Below are positions 30,822 to 31,871 of a DNA stretch of 64,000 nt, piece by piece. The notes below the pieces were generated by a model. The model saw only the letters and a list, made by a program, of their open reading frames with translations, did no database searches and was not told the DNA's origin. The DNA comes from Microbacteriaceae bacterium (GTDB taxonomy: Bacteria; Actinomycetota; Actinomycetes; Actinomycetales; Microbacteriaceae). The position numbers were made by a program, and so were the translations under genes. Position 1 is the stretch's first letter; each line of letters starts with the position of its first letter. The stretch lies in contig SKHB01000022.1 of the NCBI GenBank assembly GCA_007117135.1, positions 1 to 64,000 of the forward strand, given 5' to 3'.

Positions 30822-30859
30822 AAAAGCAGTGGGGGCCGGACATTCGTCCGACCCCCACC
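30822..30859 (-). terminator. intrinsic terminator after rhodopsin gene
   Basis: Inverted repeat gtgggggccggac/gtccgacccccac (one mismatch), attc loop; T-rich run on minus strand after it. Confidence 0.85.
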
Positions 30860-30872
30860 GATTTGTTATCGC

Positions 30873-31598
30873 TTAGACGCGAGCCAGGCTGGCCTTCTTG
30901 GCGGCGTTGACGGCCACCATTCCGAAACCAACCTTGTTCAACACGTCCGCAATCACGAAGATGATTGCGGCCAGTGAGACAGCAAGAGCTGTTGGCGCGT
31001 TTGCAATTGAGAGGAACTCTTCGATTGCGACACCGATTGGGTAGATAGCCCAACCGATCAGCACGAAGCGACGCATGATCTTGACTGCGCTCTGGACATA
31101 GTCCGGCATGCCATCGATCTTGACCTGGTAAATCGCGTAGATGATGTAGAACCACGCGAGGCTGGAGATGATGAACATGACCCAGTTGTAGATCGTGCCG
31201 GGCTCTCCTGCTTCACCGAGGTAACCGGTCACGATCATAATGATGTCGGCGACGATGATGCGGGCCACGAAGCCCTTCTGAACGGCGCCGGCGATCGCGA
31301 GGATCAAACCGAACTCCACCAACAGCAGCGGCGTGGTCAGCAACCAGTCGATGTAGCGGTAGGGCATAGTTGCAGCAACTTCAGCTTCAGTGATATCTAC
31401 GTCTTCCGCGAAGCGCACAATACCGGTCATGATCCAGTACATGATCGCCGCGATGAAGGTAATGATTGCCGCGTAGGTTGCAGTTGCTCTGTGCTCAGGC
31501 TTGATGTCGTTGCGCTCGAGGATAAAATACAGCGTTCCCGCGGCCATACCGACAAACCCAAGCATGAAGAATGCCTGCGTAATGACGAGCAATTCCAT
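30873..31598 (-). CDS. type-1 microbial rhodopsin, predicted light-driven proton pump (DTE motif)
   Basis: Helix C RYIDWLLTTPLLLVEF (Arg, Asp acceptor, Thr, Glu donor); helix G ADVLNKVGFG (Asp and Schiff-base Lys, D at K-4); seven hydrophobic segments. Confidence 0.95.
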   Translation of the reverse strand: MELLVITQAFFMLGFVGMAAGTLYFILERNDIKPEHRATATYAAIITFIAAIMYWIMTGIVRFAEDVDITEAEVAATMPYRYIDWLLTTPLLLVEFGLILAIAGAVQKGFVARIIVADIIMIVTGYLGEAGEPGTIYNWVMFIISSLAWFYIIYAIYQVKIDGMPDYVQSAVKIMRRFVLIGWAIYPIGVAIEEFLSIANAPTALAVSLAAIIFVIADVLNKVGFGMVAVNAAKKASLARV

Positions 31599-31837: not shown

Positions 31838-31871
31838 AAAGCGTGTCGGAGGTAACCCTCCGACACGCTTT
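31838..31871 (-). terminator. intrinsic terminator after pnp
   Basis: 15-bp perfect stem aaagcgtgtcggagg/cctccgacacgcttt, taac loop, T-rich tail on minus strand. Confidence 0.9.

Follow-up and report, generated by a model that had tools for sequence, protein, structure and literature searches.

A clade of ESR-related Microbacteriaceae rhodopsins without the helix-B histidine of proteorhodopsin-type pumps

Analysis of a rhodopsin gene in a 64,000-nucleotide stretch of actinobacterial DNA (referred to here as the window) revealed a clade of Microbacteriaceae rhodopsins in which the helix-B histidine that pairs with the counterion Asp in proteorhodopsin (PR) and xanthorhodopsin (XR) pumps is missing from every member sampled. 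The clade as a whole genuinely departs from a rule that recent papers present as universal, calling the His-Asp pair fully conserved in proteorhodopsins (PMC12002130) and the His superconserved across XR and PR proteins (PMC6656774). The relationship of the clade to Exiguobacterium rhodopsins and its colour are already known; the clade-wide loss of His is apparently new. The window rhodopsin itself is quite likely a green-light-driven outward H+ pump of this ESR-related, His-less group.

Results

Rhodopsin gene, fold and locus

The host is a marine actinobacterium of the genus Pontimonas (in the GTDB sense; Microbacteriaceae), represented by a draft genome (158 contigs, 86.5% complete). The rhodopsin ORF is intact, starting with ATG and containing no internal stop (Table 1). 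Its product matches the Pfam family PF01036 (1.6e-45), while an NCBIfam search with it returned no match. A structure prediction, which the original prediction had proposed as a check, gave a confident AlphaFold2 model (pLDDT 93.8; input alignment of the window protein and locus proteins) with seven transmembrane helices, so that the family match, the helix count and the helix-G Lys all identify a microbial (type-1) rhodopsin. Helix C (RYIDWLLTTPLLLVEF) supplies D84/T88/E95 and helix G (ADVLNK) supplies D218/K222, i.e., the complete DTE-type motif of bacterial outward H+ pumps (helix-C Asp/Thr/Glu with helix-G Asp and Lys), as had been claimed from the first reading of the sequence. ESR (4hyj) is the best match among solved structures both by fold (TM 0.86, 42% identity, with MAR and blue proteorhodopsins behind it) and by sequence (1.6e-50); the sequence scores are 175 bits for ESR, 104 for GPR, 80 for XR and ~64 for bacteriorhodopsin.

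Table 1. Coordinates of the rhodopsin gene, its key residues and the flanking hairpins in the window.
Feature	Position	Strand	Basis
Rhodopsin gene, 241 aa, stop codon within coordinates	30873..31598	-	PF01036, AlphaFold2 model, fold match
Met12, at PR Trp34 position	31563..31565	-	alignment; matching GR residue Ser46 per PMC6656774, alignment agrees
Met53 codon, at PR His75 / ESR His57 position; Tyr54 next (31437-31439)	31440..31442	-	ungapped helix-B alignment
Helix C: Asp84 (acceptor), Thr88, Leu92 (green-tuning position), Glu95 (donor)	31314..31349	-	alignment
Glu129, at proposed PR proton-release Glu142 (E143 in cryo-EM numbering)	31212..31214	-	alignment; PMC8257665
Glu193-Glu194; Glu194 at PR Tyr208 (Y209 in cryo-EM numbering)	31017..31022	-	alignment; PMC8257665
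Helix G: Asp218 and Schiff-base Lys222	30933..30947	-	alignment
Strong terminator hairpin just 3' of rhodopsin gene	30827..30860	-	z -5.9
Strong terminator hairpin between pnp and rhodopsin gene	31838..31871	-	z -8.5

The rhodopsin gene is flanked by pnp and an M16 peptidase gene on the same strand, and the terminator hairpins on both of its sides suggest that it is probably a transcription unit of its own. The hairpin in the pnp-rhodopsin gap is very stable and perfect, with 15 pairs, and is usable as a minus-strand terminator. The order of pnp, rhodopsin and a phosphoglycerate-mutase-like gene is the same in Pontimonas and Microcella, and pnp or phosphoglycerate-mutase-like neighbours were not found near the Rhodoluna-, Alpinimonas- and other-type loci. 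Besides the source genome, a close homologue is present in 16 of the 18 Pontimonas genomes searched; this retention, together with the synteny, argues that the rhodopsin gene is under selection. In the source genome there is also a Blh match (PF15461; G000:C80:3-644), truncated at the end of its contig, as well as a match to phytoene synthase. Blh (PF15461) matches were found in only 3 of 19 Pontimonas genomes, many of them incomplete and nearly all carrying the rhodopsin; Pontimonas without such a match may take up retinal from their surroundings or make it with a different enzyme.

Loss of the helix-B histidine

A gap-free alignment of helix B (TFIAAIMYWIM in the window, TFVAAIHYYFM in ESR, TGIAFWHYMYM in GPR) equates Met53 with PR His75 and ESR His57, and Tyr54 with PR Tyr76. 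The original prediction of Met-Tyr in place of His-Tyr is thereby borne out; its parallel with Met56 of bacteriorhodopsin is backed by the literature (PMC6656774) rather than by our own alignment. All 16 distinct same-genus homologues have Met at the His75 site.

Sampling drew on 84,980 species genomes, scanned using an alignment that included ESR, on a family-wide PF01036 search and on regions taken from the genomes thus identified, and yielded ~150 rhodopsins. The genome scan used two peptide patterns, of which one included the His site, as [MH], and the other did not; members with Leu and Phe were recovered. The resulting His-less clade comprises ~56 distinct sequences, with Met in 41 rows, Leu in 13, Phe in 3 and His in none (a table of 57 rows, the window rhodopsin being present twice because of trimming), so that the His-Asp pair is absent throughout. 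Its hosts include Pontimonas, Microcella/Yonghaparkia, Alpinimonas and Aurantimicrobium- and Rhodoluna-labelled MAGs, among others. The His is kept in all 19 DTK rows (Exiguobacterium, Alkalicoccus, Jeotgalibacillus, Caenarcaniphilales), in 5/5 Bacteroidota proteorhodopsin rows and in 24/24 actinorhodopsin-type rows, the last as had been expected for classical actinorhodopsins. DTE, D218 and K222 are conserved across the clade except in two Microcella-like MAGs (L073, L074), which have DTS: Ser replaces the donor Glu, and the His-less rhodopsin is intact in all other respects. A search for the clade beyond Microbacteriaceae, among 397 Actinomycetota genomes (a sample with few Microbacteriaceae), gave nothing above ~92 bits except in the source genome, and a search for a viral carrier found none.

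Several rhodopsins outside the clade bear on the same site. Other Microbacteriaceae DTE rhodopsins (L023, L150, L152), remote from the His-less clade, have Ser-Tyr there, and Actinomycetota DTD rhodopsins (L164, L166, L170, L173) have Ser/Ala, three of these four retaining Trp at the Trp34 site. One genome (G287) encodes both a His-less ESR-type rhodopsin (L053, FY) and a His-bearing actinorhodopsin (L146), which makes a natural pair.

Phylogenetic placement

Two trees (one of 96 rows, the other of 53 rows with a mixture model) agree that the His-less clade is monophyletic (100/99) and sister to the DTK (ESR) clade, with 100/99 support for the joint group. One change between His and non-His suffices on the tree, and the clade-wide absence of His is thus explained by a single loss. 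Actinorhodopsins, XR and GR form a separate group with 100% support, away from the window rhodopsin. By its grouping with the Exiguobacterium rhodopsins, the window rhodopsin is ESR-type in the broad sense; it lacks the strict DTK features, having Glu95 in place of the Lys donor and Met53 in place of His57, and it neither clusters with the actinorhodopsins nor has their His. Thus, the original suggestion of a divergent actinobacterial clade stands as far as a distinct actinobacterial clade is concerned, while trees, sequence and fold make it sister to the Exiguobacterium (ESR) type and not a divergent actinorhodopsin. Two other assignments were rejected: a CryoRhodopsin needs Arg at the position of BR Thr46, where the window rhodopsin has Ala43 (by ungapped offset from Met56/Met53), and mirror proteorhodopsins are defined by a DTG or DTS motif, in contrast to its DTE.

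The clade as such has been met before. The Pontimonas salivibrio rhodopsin was put in the Exiguobacterium subcluster in 2018 using MicRhoDE (PMC6106888), and ESR-type copies were described in Rhodoluna in 2025 (PMC12422013). Yet no statement on a His loss was found in the literature searched: the available passages of PMC6106888 and PMC12422013 are silent on its clade-wide absence, and those of PMC6106888 and PMC7979833 do not discuss the missing His of the P. salivibrio protein. The outcome that would have overturned the original prediction, membership of a well-described clade whose lack of this His was already on record, did not arise in that literature.

Counterion pKa and colour

Expressed in E. 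coli, the P. salivibrio rhodopsin folds, binds retinal and gives a coloured protein absorbing at 538 nm (in DDM, pH 7; PMC7979833); pumping assays are described there only for rhodopsins shifted by at least 20 nm, the shift of the Pontimonas rhodopsin being 18 nm. In the literature searched, pumping data turned up for none of the His-less clade members.

An altered counterion pKa, the functional consequence originally suggested, is plausible for the window rhodopsin in view of mutants of its relatives. In ESR, the His-to-Met substitution H57M shifts the pKa of Asp85 upward, from <2 to 6.3, and the mutant absorbs at 565 nm (pH 5) or 517 nm (pH 8.5) (PMC10743670). In PR, by contrast, it is the His that lifts the Asp pKa to ~7, and at low pH a protein with Met in its place regains function and the M state (PMC12002130). 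The direction of the shift is therefore context-dependent and not readable from sequence; the 538 nm of the P. salivibrio protein falls between the 517 and 565 nm forms of ESR H57M and is compatible with either direction. The corresponding mutant of GR, H87M, is monomeric (PMC6656774).

Other changes on the stem branch

In blue PR, His75 forms a hydrogen bond with Trp34 of the neighbouring protomer (PMC8257665; PMC6656774). This Trp of the cross-protomer triad of PR and ESR is absent as well, being Met12 in the window and M, I or V in the clade; with both His and Trp missing, only the Asp of the Asp-His-Trp triad is left. The Trp34 position is not universally Trp, since it is Ser in GR/ActR and Phe in the sampled Bacteroidota. 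Beyond the clade, a close link between loss of Trp34 and loss of His75 is not supported: actinorhodopsins (Ser) and the sampled Bacteroidota (Phe) keep the His, and actinobacterial DTD rhodopsins have Ser/Ala instead of the His alongside an intact Trp.

The extracellular exit of the clade is changed as well. Relative to ESR, PR and ActR, the clade has Thr/Val for an aromatic residue at 190, Glu/Gln at 193 and 194 and Val/Ile for a polar residue at 215, and the helix-G Glu of ESR corresponds to Ala211 in the window rhodopsin. Glu129 is retained, while the counterpart of PR Tyr208 (Y209 in PMC8257665), which in GPR is hydrogen-bonded to the proposed release group Glu142 (PMC8257665), is Glu194, or Gln in part of the clade (16/57 rows, which rules out a strict Glu194). 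By alignment, Glu129 and Glu194 occupy positions that are in contact in GPR, and we hypothesise that they may form a bacteriorhodopsin-like release pair of two close exit carboxylates in the window rhodopsin.

The His site and residues 190, 193, 194 and 215 changed once each, all on the same stem branch. This branch is long (~1 change per column in the 53-row tree) and many sites change on it anyway, so that joint changes there are no proof of functional coupling. A carotenoid antenna is unlikely because the Gly of XR/ActR is replaced by Phe142 in the window rhodopsin.

Discussion

Function and alternative explanations

An outward H+ pump is the function to which most of the evidence points: the pump motif is intact, the fold is of the pump type, blh is present in the genome, a relative is coloured and binds retinal, and the nearest solved structure by both sequence and fold, ESR, is an outward pump. 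A light sensor or slow photoswitch, in which the His-less site would be relaxed rather than tuned, appears unlikely. It would fit the occurrence of Met, Leu or Phe at this site, as in a merely hydrophobic position, and ESR has been called a poor pumper and possible sensor by authors cited in PMC6106888; against it, the donor Glu is retained in nearly all clade members, no transducer gene adjoins the rhodopsin gene (its neighbours being pnp and the M16 peptidase gene), and the authors of the P. salivibrio genome, in the same paper, saw neither a transduction system nor motility. Outward pumping of a different ion, such as Na+, is very unlikely: some DTG/DTS rhodopsins are reported as Na+/Li+ pumps (cited in PMC10154332) and two clade members are DTS, but the DTE of the window rhodopsin is the motif typical of H+ pumps, and it has neither an NDQ nor an NTQ motif. 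A divergent actinorhodopsin, the original reading, is barely credible despite the actinobacterial host and the DTE motif; it is ruled out by both trees, in which the window rhodopsin goes with ESR, and is further opposed by the gap between the ESR and XR scores and by Phe142 at the antenna-side Gly. Misalignment, assembly error or a pseudogene could be suspected in a draft genome of this kind, and is ruled out for practical purposes by the intact ORF, the ungapped helix B, the confident model and the independent assemblies, in which all same-genus homologues show the same Met.

In the favoured outward H+ pump, light would isomerise retinal, the Schiff-base proton would pass to Asp84 alone and not to a His-Asp pair, Glu95 would reprotonate the Schiff base from the cytoplasm, and the exit path of the proton would run by Arg81 and by Glu129, which would now have Glu/Gln194 as its neighbour. 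Replacing His by Met would abolish the proton-storing His-Asp bond as well as any His-Trp contact between protomers; as a consequence, the protein should depart from proteorhodopsin in its pH range, in when it releases the proton and in its oligomer state. A more far-reaching proposal, that the clade independently rebuilt a bacteriorhodopsin-like mechanism on a PR scaffold (lone Asp, no His-Trp link, an early-release pair Glu129/Glu194 and a wider pH range), is conceivable from the residues involved, if rather doubtful.

Comparison with known systems

The closest characterised relative, the P. salivibrio rhodopsin (WP_104913209.1, C3B54_11643; taken as the single PF01036 match in that genome), shares the locus, Met-Tyr and DTE with the window rhodopsin and is 79% identical to it, differing in 21% of residues. 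ESR of Exiguobacterium sibiricum belongs to the sister clade (42-46% identity) but has His57, Trp at the Trp34 site, Lys96 as donor and a helix-G Glu where the window rhodopsin has Met53, Met12, Glu95 and Ala211. Its laboratory mutant H57M carries the same substitution at the same site and leaves Lys96, Trp and the remainder of the exit as they are in ESR, whereas the natural clade altered those too. GPR and MAR share DTE, Leu at the tuning site and the Glu142 equivalent, and differ by their His-Asp pair and by Tyr208 in place of Glu194. Actinorhodopsin (RlActR, 9hfk) is likewise DTE and also occurs in Microbacteriaceae, but retains His62 and belongs to its own clade with XR and GR. In haloarchaeal bacteriorhodopsin, too, Met occupies the His site and the acceptor Asp stands alone (PMC6656774); this protein is remote in sequence, with a DTD motif and a differently placed release pair.

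The His-Asp pair is held to set the pKa, the pH window and partly the oligomer state of such pumps. A clade that lost the His once and survives in many genera thus constitutes a natural test of the role of this residue, in which the His-to-Met mutation made by biophysicists in the laboratory has already been made by nature, and which avoids reliance on single, possibly crippled mutants. Material for such a test exists in the expressible, coloured P. salivibrio protein and its His-bearing sister ESR.
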